Below, piece after piece: positions 16,057 to 34,043 of a DNA stretch of 64,000 nucleotides; the stretch's first letter is position 1, and each line of letters starts with the position of its first letter. The position numbers and the translations under genes were made by a program. The DNA is from a virus: the IMG/VR virus record IMGVR_UViG_3300047388_000185, positions 62,001 to 126,000 of that record; one strand, written 5' to 3'. Under the pieces are notes generated by a model. The model saw only the letters and a list, made by a program, of their open reading frames with translations. It made no database searches and was not told the DNA's origin.

Positions 16057-16843
16057 TCCGTGTTGAGCCTGATCCGTTCGTTCCTGGCTGCGTTGCGGCG
16101 GCTAGTTGCAAGTTTCGTTGAGCTACTTGAAGACTTGTGCCGTTAGCAATAGCATAGGTCTGACCTCCGACGATACTGGAGCTATATGCCACTGGCGTGG
16201 TTCCTAACTGATCCGACCGACCTAAGCCGAGATATGCTCCGATAGCAGCGGAAATGCGAGAGGGGAATGAGTTGTTATTCACGTCTCCTTTAAACATCCA
16301 TCCGTTGGCGCTTGAAGCGGCTGCCTTAAATTTACTTTCGAGTACGACCATTTGAAGTAGCAACGCTTTTTCTAGGTTTGCATCTCCGAGGAAAGTAGCA
16401 ACCAAATCGTCTCCTGGATTCACGCAAAGTGTTGCAGCTAAGTCAGGTCGAGCTGTCTCAATCAAACATCTTCCTGTCTTAGCGGAAGCGCCTCGAACCG
16501 AGTTGAGTCCAAGGCTTTGCCCCAACCCTAACGCCTGAATTCCAACATTAGCATTTGCCTTTTGAGTAGGATTTCCAGTAGCCAAAAGTTTCACTATCGC
16601 TGGGCTACTCAGATAATCTTTGGCCACGCTAGATGAACCTGAAAGTACTGGCCCCAGAGCGTTAACATTTAAACGACTTTCGTAATACGCCTGTGAAATA
16701 AGGATTGAGGTAATATCAGTAACCTGTCCTAACGTCCCGGCAAAATTGCTTTTGACCTGCGAGTCGTATATCTGCCGCATCTTATTGCGCAGAGTAGTCG
16801 TATACCCAGCCTGTGCAACTACTGGCGTTGCGTCGGTAGCCAT
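16037..16843 (-). CDS. Possible lytic transglycosylase-like virion protein
   Basis: 268 aa. SQAYYESRLNVNALGP followed about 60 residues later by GIQALGLGQSLGLN is reminiscent of SLT-type lytic transglycosylases (a catalytic Glu in ESxxN, then GLxQ), though spacing and residues differ. The rest is Ala/Ser/Gly-rich. Its ATG overlaps the stop of the RNAP beta' gene (TAATG), so the two are co-translated. The enzyme assignment is tentative; it may be a plain virion protein. Confidence 0.5.
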   Translation of the reverse strand: MATDATPVVAQAGYTTTLRNKMRQIYDSQVKSNFAGTLGQVTDITSILISQAYYESRLNVNALGPVLSGSSSVAKDYLSSPAIVKLLATGNPTQKANANVGIQALGLGQSLGLNSVRGASAKTGRCLIETARPDLAATLCVNPGDDLVATFLGDANLEKALLLQMVVLESKFKAAASSANGWMFKGDVNNNSFPSRISAAIGAYLGLGRSDQLGTTPVAYSSSIVGGQTYAIANGTSLQVAQRNLQLAAATQPGTNGSGSTRITPAGC

Positions 16844-18669
16844 TAGTACTTACCTTCTTTGCCTTCACCAAACTCATGACCCAGGACATACGATGTAATA
16901 GGACTGACCGAGTGAACATCGGACTCCGCCCCGACAGCAGCACTCTCTTTTAGCGTGTCACGTAGACGAGAGAAGGATAGCTTAGAGACCCAATCTCTGT
17001 CAAGCATCTTGGCGCTTTGCAAGCCCGGAACAATAGGGCGAACCTTGAGACCACTATTCGAGACAGAGACAGTCTTGACGCCGTCATCCTTAAGCTGCTG
17101 AATATGATTGGCATCCAGCAACGTTCCCGGAGTCAGGGAAAAGACACCCTTGGCTAGAACTTTTCCTTCGGCACGGTCAACAGGGAGCTCACTAGATTTA
17201 GTCTCAAGATACTTACGGACTTGATTGACGTCTACTTTTTCCCCAGGCAGGAAAGCAGTTTGACCTGGATCAACGATTTCTACATACTTGATTAGGTTCT
17301 TGGCAATCAACTCGAAGTGACGAGGATCCAAGCCACCCCCATAGATGTCACGCAGCTCTTTAGCCATATACTCTCGGCCAGCACCGATGCCACGCAGACC
17401 AACAAGGGTGCGAGGATTCAAGGTACCAGTTGAAAGTGGTTGACCAATTTGAACGTGATCCCCAACCTTCACTTTCAGATTCTGGTCAATGGGAACGAAG
17501 TGCATCTTCTCGTTGACATAAACGTGATTGTCGCCAAGGGCCGTTGGTCGGATAGCTGTGACTTCTCCGTTCAAGGTTGAAAGAGTGGCTTCATTTGTGA
17601 AGTTCTCAGAGGGGTTCGACAGCAAGTTATTTGCCTGCTCGTACGCATTACCCTTACGCTCGCCCACGGTTGCCTTATGCTTGGTTGAAAGCATAGCCTG
17701 GGTTAGAACTTCGGAAACGGACTGGGCTGCAATAACTCCAACGTTTGTTCCAATTTCTGGAAGAACTCGGTTGGCCATCAATCCAAAGCAACGTTGGCAA
17801 ACTCCATCTTTCGCCTCGCAGGTCATCACACTTCTAACGCCTACTTTCTTTACTCCATTTAGCTCTAGAGATTTCAGCTCATCATCATCAATCATGGTAG
17901 AGGTTCCGCGTAAGAATCTACCGAGCAAGCTCTTTTTATCTGTGATGGGAACTGAAATACCATTCTTCGTGCCGCAATCCACGATTGTCACGACCTCGTG
18001 AAACACAGTGGGACTAAGTTTCTTGAACAAGGCTCCGGGAAGGGCCGTTGAAAGCTGGGATAGCACAGTAGAGCTTCGACCCATGTAGGAAAGGGCGATC
18101 ATTTCTGCCGGGGTCATACCCTGGGCAAAAGAGTGTTTGATTACAACCGGAATCAGTTCACCCTTAACGTTCAAGGACATTAACGGCGTAGAAGTTCCTG
18201 AAGCCAATTGCTCCGGTTTACCACGAGCCCCAGAGCTGGCCATCATAGCCGCTGTTGAGCCCTTACCCAGAAGGAATGAAAGATTCTGGTCTGAGATCTT
18301 GGTGTTGTAGGAGCCAGTTAGATCAGTGAGTTTCTGGTTCTTAACTTGTTTTGTATCAGGCCCATTCAAGAGCAGATGGACTTTTGTATCGTATTCTTTA
18401 ATCAAGGCATCTCGCTCATCAGAATCGTTGATGTAGTCGCTGAGAGGAGTGCTTGCACCAATTTCCGTCGCGCGTCCAAAGAAGGTCTTGGCCAGAGAAT
18501 TGACATGCTCCATAGCCCCAGGTCCGCCGTGCTTTACAAGGGTGCGAACAAGTTCAGCCATGGCTGGCTTATCCAGTGGGCGATAAAGCTCAAACGCGTC
18601 CTTGCTAGCCTGCGTCGGCATTTCGCTCTTCAGTTTGATTGCACCGGGGGTCGTGAACTCATTTGCCAT
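16843..18669 (-). CDS. Phage RNA polymerase beta' subunit, C-terminal part
   Basis: 608 aa from ATG at 18669 (an ATG 60 nt upstream is possible). The homologous segments run in RpoC order: SSGARGKPEQLASG near residue 165, the IKHSFAQGMTPAEM region, VDCGTKNGI, the zinc-type CEAKDGVCQRCFG near 283-295, then the trigger-loop region GTNVGVIAAQSVSEVLTQAM near 307-326 with STKHKA. It supplies the trigger loop, jaw and C-terminal clamp parts of a polymerase whose beta' N-terminal half lies at 29394-30539. It lacks the catalytic DFDGD loop, so it cannot work alone. The neighbouring genes are phage genes, so this is a phage polymerase, not a host fragment. Confidence 0.9.
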   Translation of the reverse strand: MANEFTTPGAIKLKSEMPTQASKDAFELYRPLDKPAMAELVRTLVKHGGPGAMEHVNSLAKTFFGRATEIGASTPLSDYINDSDERDALIKEYDTKVHLLLNGPDTKQVKNQKLTDLTGSYNTKISDQNLSFLLGKGSTAAMMASSGARGKPEQLASGTSTPLMSLNVKGELIPVVIKHSFAQGMTPAEMIALSYMGRSSTVLSQLSTALPGALFKKLSPTVFHEVVTIVDCGTKNGISVPITDKKSLLGRFLRGTSTMIDDDELKSLELNGVKKVGVRSVMTCEAKDGVCQRCFGLMANRVLPEIGTNVGVIAAQSVSEVLTQAMLSTKHKATVGERKGNAYEQANNLLSNPSENFTNEATLSTLNGEVTAIRPTALGDNHVYVNEKMHFVPIDQNLKVKVGDHVQIGQPLSTGTLNPRTLVGLRGIGAGREYMAKELRDIYGGGLDPRHFELIAKNLIKYVEIVDPGQTAFLPGEKVDVNQVRKYLETKSSELPVDRAEGKVLAKGVFSLTPGTLLDANHIQQLKDDGVKTVSVSNSGLKVRPIVPGLQSAKMLDRDWVSKLSFSRLRDTLKESAAVGAESDVHSVSPITSYVLGHEFGEGKEGKY

Positions 18670-18754: not shown

Positions 18755-20320
18755 ATGGTTGACTCCAGTAATAGAAACAATCCGCATGGACGCTTTCAGG
18801 CACCTATTCCCCGGCCGATGTCGAATAGTAGGGTAGGATCTTCCTTAGTAGCCTCCTTAGTCGACAGAAGCAAGATTCTAATTCCACCAAAGCCTTCTAA
18901 ATTCAAAATGCCTAAAGCTGCTAAAGTTCCCAGCCCAAAAGCGGACACAATGACTGAAGAGACTAAAGAGGCTATCCACCCGTTCATCCTCGAACATCGT
19001 GTCGGGACGACCGAACGCGTCACCTCTATGGACCCGATGAGCGAAGGGTTCATCCGATCGTTGCGTATTCCCTATAAAGGGAAGTATTCGAATAAGGCCG
19101 TCCCGTCGACGGAACAGATCCCAGCCGGCATTCTCACTGCTTTGATCCAGACCAAGATTTCTACGTTAATGCAGGAGGCGGTTCCTGGGACTGCATATAT
19201 CACGGCCCTGCCACTGACTGATCTCGGGCGCCCTTGGAAGGCTGATGGCTGGATCGATCCCTCTTTTCGAATATCAACTGCTTGCGTTTTGAATCGACCG
19301 GGTAGAACCGTAGCGTTTTCAGCCTCAAAGGTCTTGATGGAATGCTGGAGGTATCGTGAGCCTGACTTTGTTTGTTCGATAGATGTCAGTGGACGGCCCG
19401 TCCGAGCGACCCTTGTCAATAAGTTCGAAGCAGTCACAGAGAAATTGATCTGCTATTCGTTCATCATGAAATATGATGCCGAGAAAGACGACGTGGTAGG
19501 GGGGATGCAAGACCTAGTCCATGTCTGGGTTAACGCTACCTACTCTGCCAACTCCGGTCGAAGTCTACCGATGTATTTCGAAGAGGCAGGGGCTTACTCG
19601 TTCATCCTGAACGCAGTCACAGCCTGCCTGGGTTTGGAAATTGATGCGACGGGTGACGTTGCGTTACTTGCTGAGGGAAAAGTCGGCGTTCGAAGGACGG
19701 CTCTGAATAAGAATCAATGTTCGACACTACAAGCTCTCAATGTCCTGGTAGACTTTGGAAAGGTAGTGAACTCAGGAATTCCTCCTGCTTGGGGTGCCAT
19801 GTCCAATGTAGACTGGCAAGGTATTGGGTTCGAACTTCAGCCTGGAGGCGTAGTCTGGAATGCGAGTGTGCAAACTTCTCATCTCCCCTGGCAAGTTCAA
19901 GCACATAGGGTGAAGTCCAACGGAGTATTTCCAGCTTCGATTAGACGCACTTTCGGAGTAGTAGGGGGAAGTCTCGGCGGAGCCAGGGCTTTATTTGAGC
20001 TGTCTCCATCAGCTCGAAAGCCTGTGATCTCCAAGTCAGTCGGGCAGTTGTTTTGGAATAATCTTAAAACCAATGACGATATTGATTCGTTTGATTCGGC
20101 AATCCGGGAATTGCGTACGGAGTACTTGACAGACGAGCTGATAGACGAGATGAAGAAGCTGGACGAAACCGTATCTGCAACAGAGCTCTTCGATGCGACT
20201 TATAACAGCTCGGATAAGCTGGGACGATTCGTATTCGAGAGAAGTCTTCCGGGGTACGTGAAACCGGTTGCTGTCGAGGCGAGAGTCGAGACTGTGGAAG
20301 CTCGAGAAACTTCTGATTGA
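18755..20320 (+). CDS. Hypothetical protein of 521 residues
   Basis: First gene after promoter P2, with AAGAGG before the ATG. The N-terminal 75 residues are Pro/Ser/Lys-rich and look disordered. The core (about 80-440) is a mixed alpha/beta globular domain with no motif I can place. The C-terminal 80 residues are acidic and helical. Length and promoter strength suggest a substantial early or middle protein. I do not recognise it. Confidence 0.7.
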   Translation: MVDSSNRNNPHGRFQAPIPRPMSNSRVGSSLVASLVDRSKILIPPKPSKFKMPKAAKVPSPKADTMTEETKEAIHPFILEHRVGTTERVTSMDPMSEGFIRSLRIPYKGKYSNKAVPSTEQIPAGILTALIQTKISTLMQEAVPGTAYITALPLTDLGRPWKADGWIDPSFRISTACVLNRPGRTVAFSASKVLMECWRYREPDFVCSIDVSGRPVRATLVNKFEAVTEKLICYSFIMKYDAEKDDVVGGMQDLVHVWVNATYSANSGRSLPMYFEEAGAYSFILNAVTACLGLEIDATGDVALLAEGKVGVRRTALNKNQCSTLQALNVLVDFGKVVNSGIPPAWGAMSNVDWQGIGFELQPGGVVWNASVQTSHLPWQVQAHRVKSNGVFPASIRRTFGVVGGSLGGARALFELSPSARKPVISKSVGQLFWNNLKTNDDIDSFDSAIRELRTEYLTDELIDEMKKLDETVSATELFDATYNSSDKLGRFVFERSLPGYVKPVAVEARVETVEARETSD

Positions 20321-20336
20321 CTGAGAGTGCGGGGAA

Positions 20337-20349
20337 GACTAAAATCCGG
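20337..20349 (+). promoter_or_regulatory. Candidate late-promoter element GACTAAAATCCGG
   Basis: GACTAAAATCCGG lies directly before the ATG of the SNF2-type helicase gene and is not part of a stop codon, so it is an independent copy of the YTAAAATMG pattern on the plus strand. Confidence 0.35.
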
Positions 20350-20351
20350 CC

Positions 20352-21926
20352 ATGGCCTGTGATTCTAAGTCTTTTCCCGCACCTTCTTTTTTAGGCAACG
20401 TGTACCTAACCAAGGCAGCGGCAATTCTGGCTGAGAAGGGTAAGGCTACGGTGAGCCGGATGGCGGCCGAGGTTGCGCCGGAAGCGGTCAAGCAGAGGAA
20501 CACGAAAGGTGAGGGTTTGCAGCCTCATCAGGAAGAGGCTCTGAAGAGACTCGAAAGTTCTGGCGGATTGATTTTGCACCATTCGACGGGGTCCGGTAAG
20601 ACTAAGACGTTCCTCACGGCCATCCAACGTTCAATGGAAGCGGACAAGAAGAAGCGTGCTCTCGTTGTAGCCCCTGCTAGTCTTGTCATGAACATTGACA
20701 AAGAGCTTGAAAAGCATAAAATCAAATTGGATCGTAATCGCTTGGACGTGTACTCGTACGAGAAAGCCACGCGCATGGCGGATGAGCTCGGTAAGAATAA
20801 GTATTCAATCGCCGTAGCTGATGAAGCCCAGCGGCTCCGCAATCCCGGGACTCAACGAGTTAAGGCTTTATCCGACCTGATGCGTAGCGCTGACAGGCGT
20901 CTGTTAGCCACTGCTACGGCACAGTACAATCAGCCTGGTGACCTTGCCCCGCTGATTAACATCGCAGCCGATGACGACCTCATGCCGGAAGATAAGAAGG
21001 CATTCGAGAACCGCTATCTGAAAAAGGTCCTCAAGAGCCGCACCATGTTGCAGGTTCTAATGCGCAAGGCTCCGGAAGAGTCCATCGAGTTGAAGAACAA
21101 AGACGAGATGCGAGACATCTTCGATGAATACGTTCATCACTATGATGCCAAGGATGATCCTGCTGCCAAGGATAAATTCCCAACTGTCACAGATGAAGTA
21201 ATTGAAGCTCCTATGGACGCTGAGCAACGTAAAGCTTATGCGTTCATGGAAGGCCGCATGCCCTGGTGGATTAAGCAAAAAATACGCTTTAATATGCCGA
21301 TGGATAAGAAAGAGAAATCTCAACTCAATAGCTTCTCTTCCGGCGTTAGACAAGTATCTACAGGATATCGACATTATAATCAAGATCCGAATTCTGTTGC
21401 ATATACCCCGAAGATTGAAATGGCCGTAGCTAATCTAGAGAAGAAGATGCATGAAACCAAGGATTTTCGAGGTCTAGTATACTCTGGCTTCTTAGATGCC
21501 GGTGTCAACGAATATTCACGGAGGCTAAAAGAAAGAGGGATAAATCATGCTACATTTACTGGTGCCTTATCCGCCGAACAGAAGGATGCCCTAGTCAAAG
21601 ACTATAATGCAGGTAAAAATCCCGTTCTAGTTGTTTCTAAAAGCGGGGCGGAGGGTCTTGATCTAAAGGGAACGAGACTCACCCAGGTGCTTGATCCATT
21701 CTTCAATGGATCGCTTACGGAACAGGTTGTAGGTCGAGGAGCTCGCTATGAGTCTCACAGCCATCTTCCGAAAGAAGATCGAAATATGCATATTGAATAT
21801 TATCGTACCGTACACCCCAAACATCTTCTAGGCCGAACCCCGACCTCTATCGATCAGTACCTTGCGGATAATTCCGATGACAAAGCGCAAATTTTCGATA
21901 AGGTCAAAAAACTAATGGACAATTAG
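20352..21926 (+). CDS. SNF2-type superfamily 2 helicase
   Basis: 524 aa. Walker A is HSTGSGKT near residue 76; motif Ia is VVAPASLVMN; motif II is ADEAQRLRNPG near 156; motif III is ATATAQ; in the second RecA domain SKSGAEGLDL is motif V and EQVVGRGARYES is motif VI near 460. It is a DNA-translocating ATPase of the SNF2 branch. The N-terminus has NVYLTKAAAILAEKG, close to the NKYLTKIA tag, and a late-type element lies just before the ATG, so it may be packaged or made late (inference). Confidence 0.85.
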   Translation: MACDSKSFPAPSFLGNVYLTKAAAILAEKGKATVSRMAAEVAPEAVKQRNTKGEGLQPHQEEALKRLESSGGLILHHSTGSGKTKTFLTAIQRSMEADKKKRALVVAPASLVMNIDKELEKHKIKLDRNRLDVYSYEKATRMADELGKNKYSIAVADEAQRLRNPGTQRVKALSDLMRSADRRLLATATAQYNQPGDLAPLINIAADDDLMPEDKKAFENRYLKKVLKSRTMLQVLMRKAPEESIELKNKDEMRDIFDEYVHHYDAKDDPAAKDKFPTVTDEVIEAPMDAEQRKAYAFMEGRMPWWIKQKIRFNMPMDKKEKSQLNSFSSGVRQVSTGYRHYNQDPNSVAYTPKIEMAVANLEKKMHETKDFRGLVYSGFLDAGVNEYSRRLKERGINHATFTGALSAEQKDALVKDYNAGKNPVLVVSKSGAEGLDLKGTRLTQVLDPFFNGSLTEQVVGRGARYESHSHLPKEDRNMHIEYYRTVHPKHLLGRTPTSIDQYLADNSDDKAQIFDKVKKLMDN

Positions 21927-21949
21927 TTAAATTTAGAATAGAATTAATT

Positions 21950-22615
21950 ATGGAAGATTTAGTAGCTAAGGCAGAAAAAGCTAAAAGAACAAGGCGAGCT
22001 AATCAAGCATTTAATGAATCTAGAAGAAGTGAATTGGAGTCACCGGAATTCCAGTCCCGAATAAAAAGATGCACCGGATGTAAAATCTTAAAGACTTATG
22101 CTAATTTTAGATTTGAATTTATAAAAATCGATGGGCATGAATCTCGCTGTAAACAGTGTTGTTCCACAAAAGAAGCTGAGTTTAGAAAAGTAAATCTAGG
22201 GGCTCAAAAGAAGAATAATGAACGCTGCAAAAAACACCGTGAACAAAACCCAGAATATTATAAAGAAAATTCTAGAAATTATAGATTAGCTAATCCTGAG
22301 AAAACAAAATCTTATAAGAAAAATTGGGTAGATATTAATCGAGGAAAAGTATATGCAGATAACGCTGCAAGACTAGACTATATTGATGCGGTAACCCCCT
22401 CATGGGCTGATCAAGTAGCGATAGAAGCTGTCTACATATATGCTCAACTATGGAGCATTTTGACTAAAGTCAAACAAAGTGTTGATCATGAAATCCCCCT
22501 TAGAGGAAAAGAAGTTTGTGGTCTTCATGTCCAAAATAACTTAAGAATTATGCCGTTAATTCCCAACATCTCCAAAAACAACAAGTTCGATCCCGACACC
22601 TTCATCGGCCCTTGA
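21950..22615 (+). CDS. HNH homing-type endonuclease
   Basis: 221 aa, AT-rich. The HNH core is VDHEIPLRGKEVCGLHVQNN with LRIMP after it. A zinc pair CTGCKILK and CKQCC lies in the N-terminal 75 residues, followed by a basic helical arm. It follows the helicase gene by 23 nt and is the third member of the family in this window. Its codon use and base composition differ from the neighbouring genes. Confidence 0.85.
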   Translation: MEDLVAKAEKAKRTRRANQAFNESRRSELESPEFQSRIKRCTGCKILKTYANFRFEFIKIDGHESRCKQCCSTKEAEFRKVNLGAQKKNNERCKKHREQNPEYYKENSRNYRLANPEKTKSYKKNWVDINRGKVYADNAARLDYIDAVTPSWADQVAIEAVYIYAQLWSILTKVKQSVDHEIPLRGKEVCGLHVQNNLRIMPLIPNISKNNKFDPDTFIGP

Positions 22616-22621
22616 TCTAAA

Positions 22622-22650
22622 TTACATAATAATGCATTTCCTGGTATAAG
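22622..22650 (+). promoter_or_regulatory. Phage promoter P3 (TTACAT-17-TATAAG)
   Basis: TTACAT, 17-bp spacer ending CCTGG, TATAAG. It reads into the gene at 22686, directly after the HNH gene. Confidence 0.7.
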
Positions 22651-22685
22651 ACATTACAACCAAGTACATCATAGAGTAACCGGGG

Positions 22686-22952
22686 ATGATCATGATTACT
22701 ACTCAAACACTGAGAGACTTCGAGCGTCTTTGGGCTCGGCGTGGAACGTTCCATGTAGACCTGTCGTATGGACAAGCTTTGGCCCAGTACACCCTGTGTA
22801 CCAAAGACGATCCCGATTACTTGTTTTTAGTAACTGCTAAGTACCAGCCTGTCTCGGTCTGGATTCAGGAAAAGATCGATGCCAATACGAAAAACCAAGC
22901 GCAAGCCTCTGATCATTCCGGCAACCAGGCCGCACACAAGAACACCCATTAA
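22686..22952 (+). CDS. Small hypothetical protein
   Basis: 88 aa, starting MIMITTQTLRDFERLWARRG, with a compact globular first 65 residues and a polar tail rich in Gln, Asn and His. First gene after promoter P3. No family is recognised. Confidence 0.6.
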   Translation: MIMITTQTLRDFERLWARRGTFHVDLSYGQALAQYTLCTKDDPDYLFLVTAKYQPVSVWIQEKIDANTKNQAQASDHSGNQAAHKNTH

Positions 22953-23052
22953 GCCCGTCAGTCGTCATAAAGACGACAAGAACGATTACGTCCGGGCTCC
23001 TAAGCATCGGAAGAAACCTGAACCAGACTGCTCTCGCAGTCTTTTGTTTTAG
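22879..23052 (+). CDS. Small basic protein overlapping the previous gene
   Basis: A 57-codon frame starts at ATG 22879 after CAGGAAAAG. It encodes a very basic peptide (MPIRKTKRKPLIIP...) and runs into the terminator hairpin, which encodes its last residues. The ribosome site and charge support it, but the overlap with another frame and the short length leave doubt. Confidence 0.4.
   Translation: MPIRKTKRKPLIIPATRPHTRTPIKPVSRHKDDKNDYVRAPKHRKKPEPDCSRSLLF
23026..23051 (+). terminator. Intrinsic terminator
   Basis: GACTGC-TCTC-GCAGTC followed by TTTTGTTTTA. Confidence 0.75.
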
Positions 23053-23064
23053 TAGGAGAGAGAA

Positions 23065-23541
23065 GTGTATATTGCCGTAGAGGGTCAAGACCCGTTAGAC
23101 CAGAACATTCAAACTGTTGTGCTCATAACGTTGGACGAAGCTGCTGACTTGTATGAAGAGTTGGGTAAGATCTTCGGACCCAGAGAAACTGTCATTGCTC
23201 CGAAAGACGTGGCCACTCCGATGCCCCCGTTCCCAAAGATCGACGTGCCGCCGTTGAAGAATGAACCAGTGCCGGGAACGGAAAAACAGAAGACATTGGC
23301 GGACTTCATCAAGGAGATGGAGGAGCGAAAGAAAAGCGAACCTTACAAACCGTTCGAAAATCCCCGTTGGCCGACGTGGGATCCGAAGTCACCGCTGAAT
23401 CCGACGTGCTTCACGAGGTGGCCCACTCTCCCGGGCGGATCTTATGACCCCAAGTTCACCGCAGCTGCCGTAGTTGACTGGACCAAAGTCAATCAGAACA
23501 ACTTCCCCGCCTCCTCCGATCACTACCTCACCCCTCTGTAA
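23065..23541 (+). CDS. Hypothetical protein with Pro-rich middle (GTG start)
   Basis: 158 aa from GTG after AGGAGAGAGAA. The first 65 residues form a small alpha/beta domain (MYIAVEGQDPLDQNIQTVVL). The rest is Pro/Lys/Trp-rich and probably extended. It lies 12 nt before the AAA+ gene and may act with it. No family is recognised. Confidence 0.6.
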   Translation: MYIAVEGQDPLDQNIQTVVLITLDEAADLYEELGKIFGPRETVIAPKDVATPMPPFPKIDVPPLKNEPVPGTEKQKTLADFIKEMEERKKSEPYKPFENPRWPTWDPKSPLNPTCFTRWPTLPGGSYDPKFTAAAVVDWTKVNQNNFPASSDHYLTPL

Positions 23542-23553
23542 GAAAGGCCATCA

Positions 23554-25282: not shown

Positions 25283-25312
25283 TTCAATAACGAAAGGTAT
25301 TTATGGTACAAG
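25283..25312 (+). promoter_or_regulatory. Phage promoter P4 (TTCAAT-18-TACAAG)
   Basis: TTCAAT and an 18-bp spacer ending ATGG as in the others, but the -10 is TACAAG. This explains the in-frame ATG at 25303, which is part of the promoter and not a start codon. Confidence 0.7.
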
Positions 25313-25346
25313 AAGATAAGGACAACTGTGTTGCTCCGACGCCCGT

Positions 25347-25361
25347 AAACCCTTACCAGGA
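25347..25361 (+). promoter_or_regulatory. Conserved ribosome-binding leader AAACCCTTACCAGGA
   Basis: Matches the CAACCTTACCAGGAG leader at 10917 and fixes the start of the next gene at 25369. Confidence 0.5.
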
Positions 25362-25368
25362 AAATACC

Positions 25369-26226: not shown

Positions 26227-26714
26227 GCACGGCCGAGGTGATACCAATCGCCTCGGCCAATGCGAATCCTTCTCTTTGCACGCCGTGCGGGGGGAAGTGT
26301 TGTTCGCATATGCCCGGAACGATGTTTCCTCTCGAACTGTCGAAAACTCTTGACCGCGAAGAGATCTTCATCAAGGTTCATGACCTTCTTTTGACGGGGA
26401 GATGGGCCATTGATTGGTGGGAGGGTGACCCGGAAATAGAGAGTCATTGGGATGGTGTCCCTGCCTATTATCTCCGTCCGGCAACGAAGCGGATGCAGGG
26501 CTACTGGGCTGATGCAAGCTACGGCGGAGACTGTACCTTCCATGCTGCAACTGGCTGTGAATTGTCCGAAGTAGAACGGCCGACGGACTGCAAGACACTG
26601 ATTCCACATGAGACAAATTGCCATCAACCGGAGAGCTGGAGCAAATTCTCTGGTATAATGGCATGGTACCCATTTCGCTCGGTCCTCCGAGCCATGCTTC
26701 AATACGAACCTTAG
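26223..26714 (+). CDS. Cysteine-cluster protein (YkgJ-like metal-binding)
   Basis: 163 aa. CTPCGGKCCSHMPG near residues 17-30 matches the CxxCxxxCC cluster of small zinc/iron-chelating proteins (YkgJ type). Later cysteines (DCTFHAATGC, DC) would complete a metal site. It is coupled to the upstream gene by ATGA overlap. Role in the phage is unknown. Confidence 0.6.
   Translation: MSTAEVIPIASANANPSLCTPCGGKCCSHMPGTMFPLELSKTLDREEIFIKVHDLLLTGRWAIDWWEGDPEIESHWDGVPAYYLRPATKRMQGYWADASYGGDCTFHAATGCELSEVERPTDCKTLIPHETNCHQPESWSKFSGIMAWYPFRSVLRAMLQYEP
26652..26659 (+). promoter_or_regulatory. Possible extended -10 promoter inside gene
   Basis: GGTATAAT with TG upstream (TGGTATAAT) lies 65 nt before the next gene, but no TTCAAY -35 element is present at 18 bp, so this may be weaker or host-type. 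Confidence 0.4.
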
Positions 26715-26723
26715 GGATATAAC

Positions 26724-27566
26724 ATGAAAAAGCTCTTCGTTCTTCTGTTGCTCGCCTTCGCTTCGGCATTGGCAAGTGCAGCCGAACCCATCTGTAACTG
26801 GGATCGTCCCGGTTTCAACAAGTACCAAGGTAAGCCGGTCGACGCTTTGCGGGACTATACTTTGAACTACCAAGTTCGAGCAGTCCTTCAGGTCAAGATA
26901 CGAAATCAGATGTATGATGACGTTGTCGAGATCCGTCGTGATGGAATCAAAGGCTCAACTGGCACTTTCAGCAATTTAAGAGGAATGCATTATGGTCAAG
27001 GATCGTATTGTCCCGGCAGTGTCGACACGGGAAACTGGACTGAGACACAAGTGGAGCGTGCCTTGGTCTACTGTGTCGCTGAGGTTTGTGTTGCTGTGCC
27101 CACGATATGCAACAACGTCTCTCTCATTGACCGAGACACGCCGATCGGTATCTCACCTTCGGCAGGGAGTTCCCCAACGGGTGGAGCTCCGCAGTCTAGC
27201 ATCAATCCGAGCCCGGAACAACCTGGATCTGAACTTGGAGCGGCCGTATCTCAAGAAGTTTCGAGATCGGATTCGCTCGTGGAACAGCCCGCTGAAGAAG
27301 GACCGGGATCCGAACTATCTCCAGACGTGGTTCCCGGCGGATTCGGAGGCTCGGGAGGTGGCTACGCAGGCGGAGGTGACTTCGGAGGTGGCGGCGTCGT
27401 GCTACCAGGACGTTCAACGTCTCCCCCCATCTGTCCCGGACTTAATTGCGGATTGAATCCTCCAGTGATCACGCCAATCCCAGCTGTCCCAGAAATTCCC
27501 GAATGGATTTTGATCGTTGCGGGACTGATTTGCTTTGCATGGCGGATGAGTACGAGGCAAAAGTGA
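26724..27566 (+). CDS. Secreted MHFG/PEP-CTERM-like protein
   Basis: 280 aa. Residues 1-20 form a signal peptide (MKKLFVLLLLAFASALASAA). The mature part starts EPICNWDRPGFNKY, continues with VRAVLQVKIRNQMYDDVVEIRR and SNLRGMHYGQGSYC, and resembles the MHFG family of PEP-CTERM proteins that I know from Burkholderiales. A Gly/Ser/Pro-rich linker follows, then a C-terminal VPEIPEWILIVAGLICFAWR with basic RQK, which is a PEP-CTERM-like sorting tail (PE motif, one helix, Arg/Lys end). The tail suggests processing by a host exosortase and display at the cell surface. Recognition is from memory, not a search. Confidence 0.7.
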   Translation: MKKLFVLLLLAFASALASAAEPICNWDRPGFNKYQGKPVDALRDYTLNYQVRAVLQVKIRNQMYDDVVEIRRDGIKGSTGTFSNLRGMHYGQGSYCPGSVDTGNWTETQVERALVYCVAEVCVAVPTICNNVSLIDRDTPIGISPSAGSSPTGGAPQSSINPSPEQPGSELGAAVSQEVSRSDSLVEQPAEEGPGSELSPDVVPGGFGGSGGGYAGGGDFGGGGVVLPGRSTSPPICPGLNCGLNPPVITPIPAVPEIPEWILIVAGLICFAWRMSTRQK

Positions 27567-27568
27567 GC

Positions 27569-27597
27569 AAACGGGGCCCTAAACCCCGTTTCTTTTT
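27569..27597 (+). terminator. Intrinsic terminator
   Basis: AAACGGGG-CCCTAAA-CCCCGTTT followed by CTTTTT. Confidence 0.75.
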
Positions 27598-27615
27598 GAA
27601 TACAAAGGAGTCAAC

Positions 27616-28518
27616 ATGCGAAGTGATGTGAATAAGGTTTTGACGGAGTGCTACAAGGAAGGCACTGGCCGACATTACCAATTCCCCCGTCAAACAATGG
27701 ACAAGCTCTTCGATGAGACAGGCGGTAAGATTGGTATGCGTCAGGTGCATGTCAAAACCCCAAAGCATGGGACTAAATCCTTTGGAGAGAACCTTGCTTA
27801 TCTTCCTAGGTTTTTGGCTGCCAACGTCGGCCGTAAGTGGGATGATATCTACTCCGAGATCGCTGCGACTTTCGATAAGCGCAGCACGGTCAACGCTCAC
27901 ATCTTCCAGCATCTGTTCGACTACTTCGTGCCGGCCCACGAGGTGATCTTCATTAGAAACCGGCCACACGCAATACACATCTATTCGCGTCAGGCCTATC
28001 CAATCTATTCCGGGGGATATCGAGGTCTTTACGTAGATCCTCGCAGCGGCATCCTGAAAGAGGGGATGAAGGAGTCGAATAAATCTAAACAAACCAAGGC
28101 CCAAGTAGCGGCCAAGAGTCTTCTGGAATTCAAGCGCATCTTATCTCCTCTTGTTGAGCTACACAAATTGGATGATGGGATGTGGTACGTTTTCGAACTG
28201 AAGAAGATCCCGTCCGAACGCATCGTCGAGTATGTCTACGCCCCGCCTTTCCCTAAAGATTTCGACAGTCAACAGGAATGGTATAAGGGAAAGAAGGAGT
28301 TCGATCTGTCGTCGAAAGAGGTCAAGACTGCTCTAGGTCGGCGTGTGGAAAAGGCGGTGGAGTTCAAGACGTTCAACAACAAGATCGAATCGAATCGTCA
28401 GTCTCAGCTTGTCAATCGCCCATACAATCGAGACACCCGTAGTTATGGTGTCGCCACCCATTACTACGCCTCCATGCGCAGCGCTTCCAAGAAGGAATTG
28501 CGGACAGTGGGGCTTTAA
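27616..28518 (+). CDS. Hypothetical protein of 300 residues
   Basis: ATG after AAAGGAGTCAAC. Predicted mixed alpha/beta with GRKWDDIYSEIAATFDKRS and a Tyr-rich loop (YSRQAYPIYSGGYRGLYVDP). The C-terminal third is basic and helical. I do not recognise a family. It lies upstream of the RNA ligase in the same operon. Confidence 0.65.
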   Translation: MRSDVNKVLTECYKEGTGRHYQFPRQTMDKLFDETGGKIGMRQVHVKTPKHGTKSFGENLAYLPRFLAANVGRKWDDIYSEIAATFDKRSTVNAHIFQHLFDYFVPAHEVIFIRNRPHAIHIYSRQAYPIYSGGYRGLYVDPRSGILKEGMKESNKSKQTKAQVAAKSLLEFKRILSPLVELHKLDDGMWYVFELKKIPSERIVEYVYAPPFPKDFDSQQEWYKGKKEFDLSSKEVKTALGRRVEKAVEFKTFNNKIESNRQSQLVNRPYNRDTRSYGVATHYYASMRSASKKELRTVGL

Positions 28519-28526
28519 GGATTTCA

Positions 28527-29093
28527 ATGAAAAAGATCATGTCACTGTTTCAGCGCAACTACGAAGGCAACCGCAAAGTTCGTGACCAAGTCACTCCTGG
28601 CGCCGAATGGGTTACCGCCGGAGAGGGAGTCGCCACCCGAAAGTGGGATGGCTTGGCCATCCTCATCAAGGATGGGGCCATTTTCAAGCGATACGATGCC
28701 AAGACGGGTCGTACCCCTCCGGCTGGATTCGTGCCTGCTCAGAACCTGCCGGACCCGGTCAGCGGGCATTGGCCTGGCTGGGTTCCTACGGATGGGCCGG
28801 ACTCGAAGTTGATCCGAGAAACTGTTGCTGCGCATCCCGGAGAAGTCACGGATGGAACCTACGAAGTTTGCGGGCCGAAGATTGGCACTCGTCACGGCCC
28901 CAATCCAGAAGGCTTGTCGCAGCATATCATCGTGCCACACGGTAAAGACCTTCTCGAAGACTGTCCTCGGACCTACCCGGAGCTGATGGCCTATCTGAAG
29001 GACCTGGGCATCGAAGGAATCGTCTGGCACCATGAAGACGGTCGTCGGGTGAAGATCAAGAAGGTAGACTTTCCATACCAGGAGAAAGCATGA
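28527..29093 (+). CDS. RNA ligase-like nucleotidyltransferase
   Basis: 188 aa. Motif I is ATRKWDG (Lys near residue 39 would carry AMP); a YEVCGPKIG segment fits motif III; EGIVWHH fits motif IV near 162; VKIKKVDF fits motif V. The short length suits the core nucleotidyltransferase domain of phage RNA ligases, which repair tRNAs or RNA nicks after host defence cleavage. No separate kinase-phosphatase gene is visible in the window. It is coupled to the next gene by ATGA overlap. Confidence 0.75.
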   Translation: MKKIMSLFQRNYEGNRKVRDQVTPGAEWVTAGEGVATRKWDGLAILIKDGAIFKRYDAKTGRTPPAGFVPAQNLPDPVSGHWPGWVPTDGPDSKLIRETVAAHPGEVTDGTYEVCGPKIGTRHGPNPEGLSQHIIVPHGKDLLEDCPRTYPELMAYLKDLGIEGIVWHHEDGRRVKIKKVDFPYQEKA

Positions 29094-29413
29094 CACACAT
29101 TCGAACAATCGGCGAGAAGCTGGCCAAGAAGGGTTTCAAGTTGATCCTCCTCCAGCAAGGTCCAAATACTCAGCTTGATCTTGGCTATGACAAAACGCTA
29201 GCCACCGGAGAACTACTTCAACTAGAGCTTAAGCAGGCTTCAACGTTCTATCATTCGACGGTCACTTGTACGGCCGAGATGTCAAAGTGGTTTGGCCGCG
29301 AAAAGAGGAGTGTCAGGATCGAACTCATTGGAGCTGACGTAGAGGAGAGAACCGTGCTGATGTTAGAAGACCGTCTTCGTCCCCTATGGGTTGTTATTGC
29401 TGCCGAAGCTTGA
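29090..29413 (+). CDS. Small hypothetical protein
   Basis: 107 aa, starting MTHIRTIGEKLAKKGFKLI. Alpha/beta pattern, no known motif. Its 3' end overlaps the convergent RNAP beta' gene by 20 nt. Confidence 0.6.
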   Translation: MTHIRTIGEKLAKKGFKLILLQQGPNTQLDLGYDKTLATGELLQLELKQASTFYHSTVTCTAEMSKWFGREKRSVRIELIGADVEERTVLMLEDRLRPLWVVIAAEA

Positions 29414-30539
29414 TTGGCGTATTGACCGTCACAGTTCCAGCTTCCAGAGCTTTCAGCACGTCAGCTTCAGAGTCAAACTCTTGCACTTCCTGTTTCATAT
29501 CAGGGTCCGTTAGGTTCATGGAGCCAATAATGGCTTCATGTCCTGGCGCAACCAAAGAAGCTCCTAAGCCCTTACGGTAGTCGAACGCATGTTGTTCGGG
29601 AAGGAGTTTCTTTTTAGCTTCTTCAATCGCTTCTGGGGTAATAGGGGTATGAATGGTCATAGCATCACCGTCGAAGTCACCTGCATAGAGTGGCAAGTGT
29701 AGGGGGTTAACGCCAAGCGTCTTACCTTGAATCGGTACTGGAAAATGCGCGGTGATATTTGATTGCATCAGCGTTGGGGCACGATTGGCAATGATCGGAA
29801 TAGTCTTGATCAACTTGTTAAAACTAGTCTGGGCAGCGGGAGTCCGAGCTTCTACTGCTTTCTTTGCATCTGGATAGGAATAGCCATTACGAGCTAAATC
29901 ACGAATGATGTGGAACTTGTACATGGTCCAAATCATGTCGATGGGTACGGCCATTTCATTGAAGCCGAGATTAGGCTCAGCGTAGATCGTGGCACGAGCC
30001 GAGAAGTCTTGTTTCTTCTTCAAAATCTTGGCTTGAAAGAACCCACCTTTAGGACCCTTCTCTCCGGCAATCTGCTGTAGAAAACCCTTCAACTGAGCTC
30101 CCCGAGCTGTACCCTTCAAAGCTGTACCAAGACCGAAGATGGCCTTGACGCCGTTATATGCACCAGCACGCTCATCTTTGACGTCATCATTTTCAGCTCC
30201 TTCTTCGAGAAGACCCTGAAGCCCCTGATTAACCAGGATGTGATTCTGATATAGGACGTTGACGTCAGGGTATTCAATGCGATTGCCAGCCTGAGTGATA
30301 GGCGGCCGAGCCATCGGAGGAATCACTGGAATATTGTGTAGTATGAAGGAGTCAGCAGGAGTCTCCCCGTTCTTCTTCAGTCCAGCCAAGTACTTAATCT
30401 GCTTGACCATCGTATCCCGCTTGGAGATAGACTTCGTAGCCAAGATATCTTTCTTCAAGTGCATTAGTTGCTGATCAATGTCAACAGCATCTAAAAGTTC
30501 TTGGAAGGCATGGCCTGAGGTCTTCAGTTCTGTGGTCAC
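29394..30539 (-). CDS. Phage RNA polymerase beta' subunit, N-terminal part
   Basis: 381 aa from GTG, directly after the beta stop (GTGACC). It carries the RpoC core: a rudder/bridge-like KGPKGGFFQAKILKKKQDF, then IIANRAPTLMQSNITAHFPV, and the catalytic loop PLYAGDFDGDAM near residues 281-292 with three Asp that hold Mg2+. It ends shortly after the DFDGD loop. The trigger loop, zinc and jaw parts are encoded at 16843-18669. The N-terminal clamp zinc finger of bacterial beta' is absent or lost. It is a phage polymerase subunit in the portal operon. Confidence 0.9.
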   Translation of the reverse strand: MTTELKTSGHAFQELLDAVDIDQQLMHLKKDILATKSISKRDTMVKQIKYLAGLKKNGETPADSFILHNIPVIPPMARPPITQAGNRIEYPDVNVLYQNHILVNQGLQGLLEEGAENDDVKDERAGAYNGVKAIFGLGTALKGTARGAQLKGFLQQIAGEKGPKGGFFQAKILKKKQDFSARATIYAEPNLGFNEMAVPIDMIWTMYKFHIIRDLARNGYSYPDAKKAVEARTPAAQTSFNKLIKTIPIIANRAPTLMQSNITAHFPVPIQGKTLGVNPLHLPLYAGDFDGDAMTIHTPITPEAIEEAKKKLLPEQHAFDYRKGLGASLVAPGHEAIIGSMNLTDPDMKQEVQEFDSEADVLKALEAGTVTVNTPIKLRQQ

Positions 30540-33500
30540 TTAATTATCCTTGTCAAACACGTCGTCTTCGATTTCTTCATCTTCTGGTTCATCCGCAATA
30601 TCGGGACGATTCTTGAATTCATTTACTTTGAAACTACGAATCTTGGTCCCGGTCGTGATGTCATGAAGATGGAATGTGTCACCTTCTTTTTTAACTCCGA
30701 CAGAGCCAGTTGCAATACCCTCGTACTCTTTAGTTGAAAGACCAAGTACAGACTTTATTGGCTTCTCGAAAACTGGATTAGCGACGGGCTCAGCTAAGTG
30801 GTAATGGGTCCAGTTAGTTCCACGTAGACCACCAGTTGTAATGGTATCAAATAAGCCACCTTTATCCGGCTCCAAGTTACGGGCATTGATCATCTCGCCG
30901 TTGCGAATTCTACCATGAGATTGACTAAGAATATCTGAATCAGTCATAGGAGAAGCTGTGAGTTTCCCATCACGCAAAGTCGTCTTGATGCCAGACGCGG
31001 TCAAGTAATCGATGAACTTATTCGTAGCAAAGGTTGTCTTGGGCTTGGGTAAAGGTTCACCGCGTTGGAACTTCGCCCAGAAGTCTTCATTGGACTCCGA
31101 CTTAGTCGTGGCAATTTCTTTTAAGTTCTTACGGGCATTAGAGCCAAGCAAACCTAAGAATTCCATGTAACCGATACTCTTTGAGCCTTCTTCACCACCC
31201 TTAGTCGGCTGATTGACATTGTCATATCCACCAGTATTACGGGCAGACCAGTTCTGGTCGGAGGTCTTGTAGAGCTTGATGAAGTATTGCGGTCCCGCCA
31301 GGACTTGACCCAGTGTCTTCTTGGTCGTCGGATCTACGAGCTCATCTGTATCTGAAATCCCATGCTTAGCCAATTCTGCCTTCAATTCAACAACGTTCGA
31401 GCCCTTGTCGAAGTTATGAACTAAGTACGGCGAACCTTTAACCTGAGCAATCTTGGCCGCAGCAGTTTCCATCAGTTGCCCGAGATTCACTCGAGATGTG
31501 ACAGAGGCGGGATTAAGCAGAATATCTACAGGTTTGCCAGTCTCTTTCTTATAGGGCATGGATGTATCCGGAAGAATCAAAGACACGATCCCCTTGTTGC
31601 CATGCAGACCAGTCAGCTTATCTCCGACTTCAAGTGGCTTGACTGAGCGTAGAATGAAACGAACTTGGCGAGTAGCAGTGTGCGCGTCAACGACCTTGCC
31701 ATCTTCATCGTGTTGCCACAGACCAACGACCTTCTTCCAGGGACGAATCAGAGTTTTGTGCATACGACCAAGAGCCTTATCTTCTGCAGTTGGCTCTTTC
31801 TTCTCGAGCACAGCGTAGCAGGGATCTCCGTGATGCAGGACTGAGCCTACCTTGGCATAGCCATTGTCGTCCAATTTATCTAGTTGTTCTTTGGTGAATT
31901 CACCTGGGAACCAACGGGCAAATAGTGCTTTCTTGGCCGTCGTGATATCCGTCACGTCGTAGTCAATCTTATATGCGTGATGTGAGGATAGGGATTCTGC
32001 ACAAGATTGGGATAGGACTAATCCGTCCTCGTGGTTATATCCCTTCCACGGGATGTAAGCCACTTCCAGGTTTTTGCCCAAAGCCAAGACTCCGTCCTTT
32101 GTGTAATTGGACTCGAACAACTGGTGTCCCGGGGTAACATGGTCGCCGACCTTAACCAATGGGGTCTCATCGTCATGGAATCCTTTCATGTTAAAGGGTA
32201 GATTTTTCACAGCTTTGACTAGCACAGCTTTGCCTCCGCCCGTGGGTTGAATGGTCACGCCATTACGGTCAGCCTTAATAACTTCCCCGTCTATCGGGGC
32301 AACTGTTCCTGTAACGCCGGCAAGTTGCTTGACGAAGGGGATACCTTGAGCATTCGTAGTCTGAACGAGAGGGACTTCTCGGTTCACCAAAGACAGGGCC
32401 TGGGGGATGGCCTTGCCAGCCATAGTCAAACGGCCTGGATGGTTCGAGTTTAAGAAGGGCACGAGATTAGTCGTGACCGTATACATGTCAGTCGAATCAT
32501 AGAGCCAGTAGTCAACCTTGTCCCGAGCGATCTGACCGAGTTCCCCTTTGATCTGAGCCTGAACGGGATCTTCCCCGTCTTGGTTCGGAAAACCGACGAT
32601 CTTGGTCATCATCTCGTGGACGGAGATGTTTCTGACTTTGCCAGCCTTATCCTTTACTCTGGCGTAGAGATTTCCCTCAGCGTCTCGACTAGCTGATACA
32701 GTAAAGCGCTGGTCGATACCAGCATGCCCAGATTCAGGTGTCCGACTAGGATCGATAATGCCAAGATGGCTAGGATCGATGTCTCGAGCTCCCATGGGTA
32801 CGCCGCGATCTGACGCGATACCGCCTTCGCCTTGTCCAAGCACAGTAACTTTAGCAACATTTTCGATAGACTCCAGAGGATTGGTTTCAGACGGGGTTGT
32901 GACCAAGTTCGAGGCCACGATGTAATTAGAATAGAACTTAGAGAAAGGCTTGGTCGACAGATTACCCTTGAGCTTGGGATCTGTCTGCGGAATCCGGTCA
33001 AGCTCCCGACCCAAACGGTTCTTAATCAGCTTGACAACTTGGTGCTCCTTGGCAAAACGGGTCGTCAAGAAGTCAGGTAGATTCTGGACTCGCTTGAACT
33101 GCAGGCTATCTCGGTTATCTTCCTGACGTTCATGCCGACGGGTCTGAATCAGATTGCGCATGGCAAGCAGGATCGCGTCCTTCGTCACGGTAGCGATAGG
33201 CTGACCGAGAGTAGACGCAGTTGTGCGAGTATTCAGCTTCGAGCTCTCAAGGCGTTCCTTTAGCTGATGCGCCATAACTTCCGGTGAAGCTCCGACGACC
33301 CGCTCACGGGAATCAACAAGCTTCAAGTACATATCCTTGAGGTACTTGTCTTCTTTCCCAGTAACAGCTTTTTGATTGGCTTCCCAAACATCTGCTGGGA
33401 TATAAGAAGAGATCTCTTTACCACTTACTCCGAAAACCTTTGTCAGCAAAGCACCAATAGGAATTTGAGACGTGCTGTTACCCGGAATCAAGTAGAACAT

Positions 33501-34043
33501 GTACGTTTCGGGATCGAGCGTCAAGTGTAAAGATGCACCGGAGCCAGTATTGAAGTGGGTCTCGAGTTCGCCTGTCTCCTTGGTACGGGTATATACGCCG
33601 GGGAGCAATTGGAGTTGATTGGCTGCAGCGTAGTTGTTTCCCTTATACAGCAGGGTATGCTTTCCGGTAATGTGAAAAGAATCCATCAAAGAGAAGCCTG
33701 GTTGTTCATCTACAACTTGGCCCGTAGTCTTATCGATCAGCTTCAAGTCAGCCTTGATCGGATAAGTCAAACTACGACTTTCCAGGATGGCCTTCTTTTC
33801 ATCTTCGTGGGTGTAGTCCTTGCGCTCAGCACGGAAGTTCTCAGCGGTCAGAATGTAGTTGCGGCCTTCGACTGGAAACTGGGTGGCTAGACCAGAGATC
33901 AACGCGGCATCAACCTTGTTATTCATGTCTGCAGGGGACGAGAAGATACGGGTCAACTTAGGACGGGTTACTGCATCGCCTACTGCAGGAATAGCAGCCT
34001 GAGAAACGGCTACGGTTTCATCAGCTCGCTTAGTAAACTTCAT
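30540..34043 (-). CDS. Phage RNA polymerase beta subunit, full length in one gene
   Basis: 1167 aa from ATG at 34043, overlapping the upstream stop (ATGA). A longer frame from 34136 exists but overlaps the upstream gene fully. RpoB landmarks in order: GYNHEDGLVLSQSC near residue 669, GDKLTGLHGNKG near 805-816, and MPYKKETGKPVDILLNPASV then RVNLGQLMETAAA near 830-860. In bacterial beta the last parts hold DNA and the active site. The N-terminal half is weakly conserved. Beta is intact here, while beta' is split. The N-terminus MKFTKRADE fits the hydrophobic-x-K-x-A pattern. Confidence 0.9.
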   Translation of the reverse strand: MKFTKRADETVAVSQAAIPAVGDAVTRPKLTRIFSSPADMNNKVDAALISGLATQFPVEGRNYILTAENFRAERKDYTHEDEKKAILESRSLTYPIKADLKLIDKTTGQVVDEQPGFSLMDSFHITGKHTLLYKGNNYAAANQLQLLPGVYTRTKETGELETHFNTGSGASLHLTLDPETYMFYLIPGNSTSQIPIGALLTKVFGVSGKEISSYIPADVWEANQKAVTGKEDKYLKDMYLKLVDSRERVVGASPEVMAHQLKERLESSKLNTRTTASTLGQPIATVTKDAILLAMRNLIQTRRHERQEDNRDSLQFKRVQNLPDFLTTRFAKEHQVVKLIKNRLGRELDRIPQTDPKLKGNLSTKPFSKFYSNYIVASNLVTTPSETNPLESIENVAKVTVLGQGEGGIASDRGVPMGARDIDPSHLGIIDPSRTPESGHAGIDQRFTVSASRDAEGNLYARVKDKAGKVRNISVHEMMTKIVGFPNQDGEDPVQAQIKGELGQIARDKVDYWLYDSTDMYTVTTNLVPFLNSNHPGRLTMAGKAIPQALSLVNREVPLVQTTNAQGIPFVKQLAGVTGTVAPIDGEVIKADRNGVTIQPTGGGKAVLVKAVKNLPFNMKGFHDDETPLVKVGDHVTPGHQLFESNYTKDGVLALGKNLEVAYIPWKGYNHEDGLVLSQSCAESLSSHHAYKIDYDVTDITTAKKALFARWFPGEFTKEQLDKLDDNGYAKVGSVLHHGDPCYAVLEKKEPTAEDKALGRMHKTLIRPWKKVVGLWQHDEDGKVVDAHTATRQVRFILRSVKPLEVGDKLTGLHGNKGIVSLILPDTSMPYKKETGKPVDILLNPASVTSRVNLGQLMETAAAKIAQVKGSPYLVHNFDKGSNVVELKAELAKHGISDTDELVDPTTKKTLGQVLAGPQYFIKLYKTSDQNWSARNTGGYDNVNQPTKGGEEGSKSIGYMEFLGLLGSNARKNLKEIATTKSESNEDFWAKFQRGEPLPKPKTTFATNKFIDYLTASGIKTTLRDGKLTASPMTDSDILSQSHGRIRNGEMINARNLEPDKGGLFDTITTGGLRGTNWTHYHLAEPVANPVFEKPIKSVLGLSTKEYEGIATGSVGVKKEGDTFHLHDITTGTKIRSFKVNEFKNRPDIADEPEDEEIEDDVFDKDN

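Follow-up and report, generated by a model that had tools for sequence, protein, structure and literature searches.

Phage-encoded multisubunit RNA polymerases (RNAPs) often occur in several pieces, and it is debated whether a whole enzyme broke up to give them or whether they are primitive many-piece relics (PMC7598289, PMC7824862). Weinheimer and Aylward (2020) described the mReC clade, whose published text is silent on fused chains, split sites and sigma (PMC7481178). Like the enzyme analysed here, mReC RNAPs form a deep-branching phage clade beside bacteria, and their beta and beta' are recognisable by cellular models. Our phage RNAP clade is likewise distinct from and beside cellular RNAPs; a search for the mReC capsid family PF07068 gave no match in 19 records, with the control silent too, and the same outcome, silent control included, was obtained with PF00940. 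RNAPs of the Arash/D69 type are annotated merely as "RNA polymerase subunit beta" or as hypothetical. The openly available literature searched yielded no phage RNAP of this type with beta and beta' fused, and the words "fused" and "single-chain" are absent from a 2026 jumbo-phage review.

We analysed a 64,000-nucleotide stretch of viral DNA (IMG/VR record IMGVR_UViG_3300047388_000185, positions 62,001 to 126,000; hereafter the window). It is likely to encode an alpha-less bacterial-type RNAP core of three chains, presumed active, that derives from a fused beta-beta' enzyme.

Polymerase genes, catalytic core and relatives

The three RNAP genes lie on the minus strand. Chain 1 (30540-34043; 1167 aa) comprises beta (residues 1 to ~1025) and an N-terminal clamp segment of beta' (~1026-1130), as assigned by Pfam (Rpb2_6, 4e-54), a tail match and Foldseek, in which the matches of the predicted model were bacterial beta chains. 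Chain 2 (beta'N; 29394-30539; 381 aa) is the middle part of beta', with the sigma-binding coiled-coil region and the DPBB with the catalytic loop; it was assigned by Pfam (Rpb1_2, 6e-18; Rpb1_1, 1e-9) and by alignment to relatives. Chain 3 (beta'C; 16843-18669; 608 aa from ATG or 628 aa from TTG) is the C-terminal part, with the bridge region, a four-Cys zinc site, the trigger loop with its His, and the C-terminal end (Pfam Rpb1_5, 7e-16; alignment; motif table). A plus-strand gene block (18755-29413) encoding a SNF2-type helicase, an AAA ATPase, an RNA ligase and others splits beta'N from beta'C, which are spaced 10,664 bp apart. The beta/beta'N boundary (30537-30551, minus strand) consists of one in-frame TAA (30542-30540) followed immediately by the GTG start of beta'N (30539-30537), with AAGGA (30551-30547) 7 nt 5' of the GTG. 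Upstream of the RNAP genes are a small ORF from the ORF list (34040-34342, minus strand), which overlaps the beta start by 4 nt and had no family match in the PHROG search, and the portal protein gene (34360-36243, minus strand; PHROG 2739, 1.6e-10). The portal gene adjoins the RNAP genes in relatives too (tblastn).

The sequence-only reading had placed beta in one gene, beta'N and beta'C at distant loci, and the portal gene upstream of beta and beta'N. These positions were borne out, the last by the PHROG match, and the DFDGD motif, trigger-loop His and zinc cysteines also lie in the chains to which it had assigned them. Its description of a whole beta with beta' in two is right as to the two beta' genes; beta' is actually in three pieces, because "beta" ends in the N-terminal segment of beta'.

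The catalytic DFDGD of beta'N (29664-29678, minus strand) was kept in at least 123 of the 125 phage rows covering the site. The two active-site lysines of beta were K in all covering rows, the trigger-loop His was kept in 113/113, and the zinc cysteines, four of which are present in the window beta'C, were conserved. Judged from these residues, the enzyme is a phage-encoded bacterial-type RNAP with an intact active site. Rpb2_6 genes occurred once per record in 28/28 records, including the 192,737-bp record of the window; thus, no second copy replaces the window's polymerase. The reading had named mutated catalytic Asp residues in relatives and extra polymerase genes elsewhere as grounds for doubt; the Asp residues proved conserved, and no second multisubunit polymerase was present. 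It had also seen neither sigma nor alpha. For alpha this stood (PF01193 homologues in 0/21 records, control positive); for sigma it holds only within the window, and the gene lies outside it. The three pieces could reasonably assemble without alpha, through interfaces that would have been retained from their evolution within one polypeptide.

Among ~110 contig groups compared, the RNAP was one-chain (beta-beta', ~2010-2870 aa) in 60, two-chain (beta-beta'N plus beta'C) in 23 and three-chain in 26, the window included. The undivided protein of ~2000 residues belongs to phages less closely related to the window. In the closest relatives (Salmonella phage Arash, Vibrio phage D69 and IMG/VR contigs), beta and beta'N form one ORF of 1510-1532 aa, and the ORF runs uninterrupted across the window's break point in Arash, D69, L013, L017 and others. 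L014 was considered as a different three-chain form with a broken beta and was rejected: a group I intron and its HNH endonuclease account for the interruption, so L014 is a two-chain enzyme. Vibrio phage D181 has the same intron layout. The idea that mobile introns or inteins directly produced the breaks seen in the window was not supported: large inserts turn up repeatedly in these RNAPs, at the catalytic loop among other motifs, but neither break position has one.

Sigma factor, promoters and virion packaging

A stated rule is that RNAP-encoding jumbo phages have no recognisable sigma, whereas RNAP-less ones do. The window phage departs from it, as it encodes a sigma70 factor in addition to a bacterial-type core. 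The sigma70-family gene (G000:150595-151359, minus strand, outside the window; PF04542, 2e-8; PF04545, 3e-11) encodes Sigma70 regions 1.2, 2 and 4. Such a gene was present in 20/21 window/Arash-clade records but only scattered among the one-chain and deep two-chain records (9/33 above cut-off), indicating that enzymes of this type do not depend on it.

The putative phage promoter pattern is TTCAAY / 17-18 bp / TGGTATAAG. One promoter-like motif, TCAAC-N16-GGTATAA, lies at 37949-37976 (plus strand), and further window motifs start at about 10857, 38433, 43727, 48249, 50304, 53557, 60629 and 63395. Genome-wide, 24 bipartite motifs were found on the plus strand and 0 on the minus strand, against 0.0 expected from shuffles; in 18/23 cases the motif was at most 100 nt from an SD-linked ATG. 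The motif is conserved in the window/Arash clade. The RNAP, portal and structural genes are on the other strand, and a search there for a late promoter found no motif.

The alignment shows that beta' still has its sigma-binding coiled-coil region, through which the phage sigma may bind the phage core and read the opposite-strand promoters. The host core could also be a target of this sigma, in addition to the phage core or in its place. That sigma and promoters serve the host core only, with the phage polymerase using another specificity factor for the structural strand, is a plausible reading that we do not favour: it would fit the location of all 24 promoters and the many one-chain phages that have the polymerase and no sigma, but the window/Arash clade conserves sigma, motif and split RNAP together, and the coiled-coil region is still present.

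Packaging of the polymerase in the virion, with transcription of early genes after injection, is possible but somewhat doubtful. The RNAP genes follow the portal gene throughout the window/Arash clade and in some one-chain phages, and the phiKZ vRNAP is a precedent. However, packaging is deduced here from gene position alone, and the more natural role of a phage sigma would be to redirect a polymerase that is produced inside the cell.

The fusion scar and the proposed order of breaks

Chain 1 ends in ~105 residues (30654-30968, minus strand; SHGRIRNGEMINARNLEPDKGGLF in the window) that show homology to the start of bacterial beta' by hhalign, Pfam and a PDB match; we term this segment the fusion scar. 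It matched the bacterial beta' N-terminus over 78 columns (hhalign, E 6.8e-6), is without the N-terminal zinc-binding domain of beta', and is preceded by a part that aligns to the extreme end of bacterial beta (hhalign). In fused relatives the scar segment matched Pfam Rpb1_1, starting at profile position 5 or 11, and B. subtilis beta' residues 18-53 (PDB); the Foldseek matches of the beta' part of fused L017 were whole beta' N-halves. In the beta+beta' profile, whose boundary positions were taken from five bacterial outgroups and several further phyla, bacterial beta ends at ~1005-1021 and beta' starts at ~1008-1018, and window chain 1 reaches 1125. A split at the true beta/beta' border was therefore rejected, as chain 1 runs past the border into beta'. 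The scar and the beta' break are common to the Arash/D69-type RNAP lineage.

With an archaeal outgroup, the phage RNAP clade was placed beside bacteria (SH-aLRT 100). Arash/D69-type sequences were monophyletic (SH 1.0, SH-aLRT 100). Two- and three-chain forms made up one clade (SH 1.0 in FastTree, SH-aLRT 100 in IQ-TREE), with the window-type three-chain clade inside the two-chain forms (support 99-100), and one change on the tree suffices for the beta' split. A constraint grouping all one-chain forms together was not rejected (p-AU 0.40 and 0.70); AU tests do not fix the position of the root within the phage clade, and one-chain forms were not taken as proven basal. The one-chain-first order would follow by parsimony rather than from the tree alone, because cells and one-chain phages alike have an undivided beta' and the fusion is shared. 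The evidence strongly suggests that an ancestral phage fused beta to beta', that a first break just past the double-psi barrel of beta' would have given two chains, and that in the window lineage a second break, within beta' and not at the beta/beta' border, would have given three.

The opposite order, with separate pieces primitive and fused chains later, was put forward by Iyer et al. (2021; PMC7824862) with regard to group 1 jumbo phages, and the unsettled root speaks for it; for the window enzyme it is very unlikely. The beta' N-terminus on the beta chain is sensible only after a beta-beta' fusion, three-chain forms are nested within two-chain forms, beta' is whole in cells, and no three-chain relative lacking the scar was seen at the clade base among the contig groups compared. 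Membership in, or derivation from, the phiKZ/AR9-type split polymerases (virion or non-virion) is most improbable and was rejected. These enzymes are of the same kind, PHROG families of jumbo-phage RNAP subunits match the window chains, and their beta' breaks in the same linker region (PMC7598289). However, the beta'N of the AR9 nvRNAP has its own beta' N-terminus and its beta-C ends normally, without a scar; Yersinia phage YerA41 and Cobetia phage Carin-5 also lack the scar. The window phage has one RNAP rather than two, carries a sigma70 gene, and shares only short stretches of identity with AR9. It is scarcely credible that a sequencing error, assembly fault or stop-codon read-through separates what is truly one protein, as the single TAA might suggest and as the reading had allowed for with a frameshift or assembly gap in beta: separate ORFs occur in 26 contig groups, several with 2-8 kb gaps or overlapping frames, a good Shine-Dalgarno precedes the GTG, and three-chain forms are one clade.

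We consider it reasonably probable that a widespread lineage of tailed phages fused bacterial-type beta and beta' into an alpha-free chain of ~2000 residues, which then broke stepwise, and that one branch gained sigma and a promoter code. If true, this would be a resolved case in which the splitting of a fused enzyme produced a multi-chain viral RNAP, and did so independently of phiKZ/AR9. The break-up would be readable here, as intermediate states exist and the final state retains the scar. The one-chain forms would be natural alpha-free beta-beta' polymerases, expressible from one gene.

Comparison with other split polymerases

The RNAPs of phiKZ and AR9 resemble the window enzyme in lacking alpha, in the break of beta' after the DPBB and in their bacterial-type catalytic residues. 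They differ in that each phage has two RNAPs of four to five chains with beta split too, whereas in the window beta is whole and carries the beta' N-terminus; they also have other promoter-recognition subunits (PMC7598289). The sequence-only reading was correct that the arrangement differs from theirs. A whole beta with a split beta' is, however, not unusual: YerA41, as annotated, has a whole beta and beta' in two genes. In YerA41 and Carin-5, the N-terminus of beta', zinc-binding domain included, is still on beta' itself, and gene order and sequence differ. The window enzyme is set apart by the fusion scar, not by a whole beta with a split beta'. The rpoC1-rpoC2 genes of cyanobacteria and plastids split beta' in the same general region; there is no beta fusion, and the phage middle piece, as aligned, stops ~65-70 residues short of where the cyanobacterial gamma chain ends. 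The closest isolated relatives are Arash and Vibrio phages D69, D148 and D181, which share 46-54% identity with the window over all three chains and have the same portal-small ORF-RNAP order; Arash and D69, like the window phage, carry sigma genes. They differ in that beta and beta'N remain one chain of 1525-1527 residues.

Polymerase genes in the window

The virus record holding the window (G000:62001-126000) is 192,737 bp long. The three RNA polymerase (RNAP) ORFs lie where the sequence-only reading had placed them and match RNA polymerase families. On the minus strand, the gene order is portal (36243-34360), a 100-aa ORF, beta (chain 1, 34043-30540) and beta'N (chain 2, 30539-29394); a block of plus-strand genes separates beta'N from beta'C (chain 3, 18669-16843, minus strand), at a distance of 10,664 bp. 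TAA closes the beta frame, and an in-frame GTG of beta'N is the very next codon (AAGGATAATTAAGTG). Relatives have one ORF across the same stretch, of 1525 aa in Salmonella phage Arash, 1527 aa in Vibrio phage D69 and 1510-1532 aa in L013, L016 and L017 from IMG/VR; the window phage is therefore broken exactly at a place that is continuous in these relatives.

Gene types that often accompany phage RNAPs were present in the window: an ATP-dependent DNA ligase-like gene (15076-16056), an RNA ligase (28527-29093; PHROG 14301, 3e-81) and two SNF2-type helicases (20352-21926 and 41955-43721). Nine tRNA genes were found at 55444-63616; the anticodon call of that at 57065-57138 was undetermined (two bases).

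Beta' segment on the beta chain and catalytic residues

Phage and bacterial sequences together gave a beta+beta' profile, on which bacterial beta ended at position ~1005-1021 and bacterial beta' started at ~1008-1018 (borders from Salmonella, Acinetobacter, two Firmicutes-type contigs and several other phyla). Window chain 1 reaches position 1125, where chain 2 begins; the extra ~105 residues of chain 1 (the scar) are the beta' N-terminus. When 35 three-chain tails were aligned by hhalign with the N-termini of five bacterial beta' chains, E was 6.8e-6 (78 columns, 31% identity), and the stretch just ahead of the beta'-like tail aligned with the extreme C-terminal residues of bacterial beta. 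Pfam Rpb1_1 matched residues 995-1210 of a one-chain relative (L082; from profile position 5) and residues 1022-1260 of the Arash fusion (from profile position 11). In B. subtilis beta', a phage profile found matches at residues 18-53 and 117-539. The predicted structure of the beta' part of fused L017 (pLDDT 81) aligned with bacterial beta' chains along 534-602 columns; its domains packed loosely (rmsd ~15), which is not surprising in a chain removed from its complex. The beta' N-terminal zinc-binding domain is absent. The profile borders, hhalign, Pfam and structure-model matches together indicate that the break giving three chains fell ~105-150 residues inside beta', and that the beta gene still carries the beta' head.

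Loss of the catalytic Asp residues in relatives and replacement by extra polymerase genes, both considered earlier, were not observed. Among covering phage rows, the first triad Asp was present in 125/125 and the second and third each in 123/125, the two beta lysines in 132/132 and the trigger-loop His in 113/113; the zinc cysteines were kept nearly always. Each of 28/28 records had one RNAP. The predicted structure of window beta (pLDDT 74) matched bacterial beta chains (E ~1e-62). Judging from sequence and structure models, the enzyme is probably active. As the sequence-only reading had noted, alpha was missing (0/21 records; search control positive). Alpha is the assembly platform of bacterial RNAP, and a one-chain ancestor would explain dispensing with it. 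In the rifampicin-pocket region of chain 1 (34043-30540), N and T were read by eye at the equivalents of E. coli beta H526/S531, which suggests natural rifampicin tolerance.

Chain forms, phylogeny and sigma factor

Five viral-contig scans and ORF-level profile searches gathered 60 contig groups with one-chain beta-beta', 23 with two chains (beta-beta'N, beta'C) and 26, window included, with beta and beta'N on separate ORFs (three chains). The two-chain count includes L242, cut by the contig end, and L014, whose extra beta break is a group I intron. Four contigs (L104-L108) have an additional break within beta; in L190 and L239, only the N-half of beta is broken.

The L014 intron (7181-8093; Rfam RF00028, 1.2e-28), with an HNH homing endonuclease, lies at the conserved FFNS|NHPGRLTMAGK site of beta. 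Vibrio phage D181 (L278) has a homing endonuclease within its beta gene; D69 has none. Intein-like inserts recur at the catalytic DFDGD of one-chain phage RNAPs in six contig groups, with Intein_splicing and LAGLIDADG Pfam matches in L107 (6740-14230) and L175 (9932-17527) and similarly sized inserts in L169, L176, L191 and L192 at the corresponding site. Divergent one-chain beta-beta' ORFs (1789-1893 aa) from bacterial assemblies (L277:2101-7779, a Methylobacter psychrophilus contig; L273; L275) form a separate single-chain RNAP family and possibly represent a prophage or another mobile element.

In the FastTree analysis (134 taxa x 2014 columns, rooted with five bacterial rpoB+rpoC sets), the two- and three-chain forms all grouped together as one clade (SH 1.0), with the window type as one clade nested therein (SH 1.0). 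IQ-TREE with 51 taxa gave the same two clades (support 100 and 99), and one change on that tree explained the beta' split. When extra bacteria and three archaea were added, phages formed one group beside bacteria (SH-aLRT 100) and the nesting was unchanged. In AU tests, a clade uniting every one-chain form was not rejected (p 0.40, 0.70), and the trees therefore allow more than one root within the phages. The simplest order is still fusion of beta to beta', a break of beta', and a second break yielding three chains: every phage form has the scar, and both cells and one-chain phages have beta' in one piece.

The sequence-only reading saw no sigma gene; one of the sigma70 family (255 residues; region 1.2, 2 and 4 matches) lies beyond the window, at 150595-151359 (minus strand) of the genome record. 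A sigma region-2 match was found in 20/21 records of the window/Arash clade and in only 9/33 deeper or one-chain records. A strong upstream-region motif consisted of TTCAAY, a 17-18 bp spacer and TGGTATAAG, often followed by AARGTA. The genome has 24 copies of this bipartite motif on the plus strand and 0 on the minus strand (shuffles expect 0.0); 18/23 copies were ≤100 nt from an SD-linked ATG. In eleven sampled loci of the same clade, GGTATAA lay mostly on the strand that does not carry the RNAP genes (9 vs 62), D69 alone being without this bias; deeper lineages showed no comparable GGTATAA strand pattern. The motif has a sigma70-style layout and a non-host -10 (TATAAG); it is a candidate promoter for phage core, host core or both. 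According to a 2020 review, RNAP-encoding jumbo phages are without recognisable initiation factors (PMC7598289); the combination of RNAP and sigma in the window phage is therefore notable. It is not unique, to judge from Carin-5, in which a sigma factor is annotated beside RNAP; Sigma70_r2 gave no match there.

Comparison with known phage polymerases

The arrangement had been considered unusual relative to phiKZ and AR9. The difference from these phages stands, in the form of the scar; however, YerA41 also has whole beta with split beta', and this feature alone is therefore not new. Assignment to the phiKZ/AR9 type was rejected. In AR9, the beta' N-terminus (ENHEFSDDGIYSERIFG) stands at the head of the non-virion beta'N exon itself, and the beta C-fragment has a normal end without scar; YerA41 and Carin-5 likewise retain the beta' N-terminus on beta', unlike the window lineage. 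It follows from these differences that the scar is private to the window and its relatives, and that beta' splitting after DPBB arose more than once.

No description of one-chain beta-beta' RNAPs of this type was found in open-access literature. Single-chain RNAPs of the crAss-like, YonO-like and P23-45 kinds are, by their published descriptions, different and highly diverged enzymes. The window group resembles mReC of Weinheimer & Aylward 2020, whose text does not describe fusion or splitting in mReC. The evolutionary and anatomical finding is real and well supported, and the function is inferred. The polymerase is a variant of an already known kind of phage polymerase.
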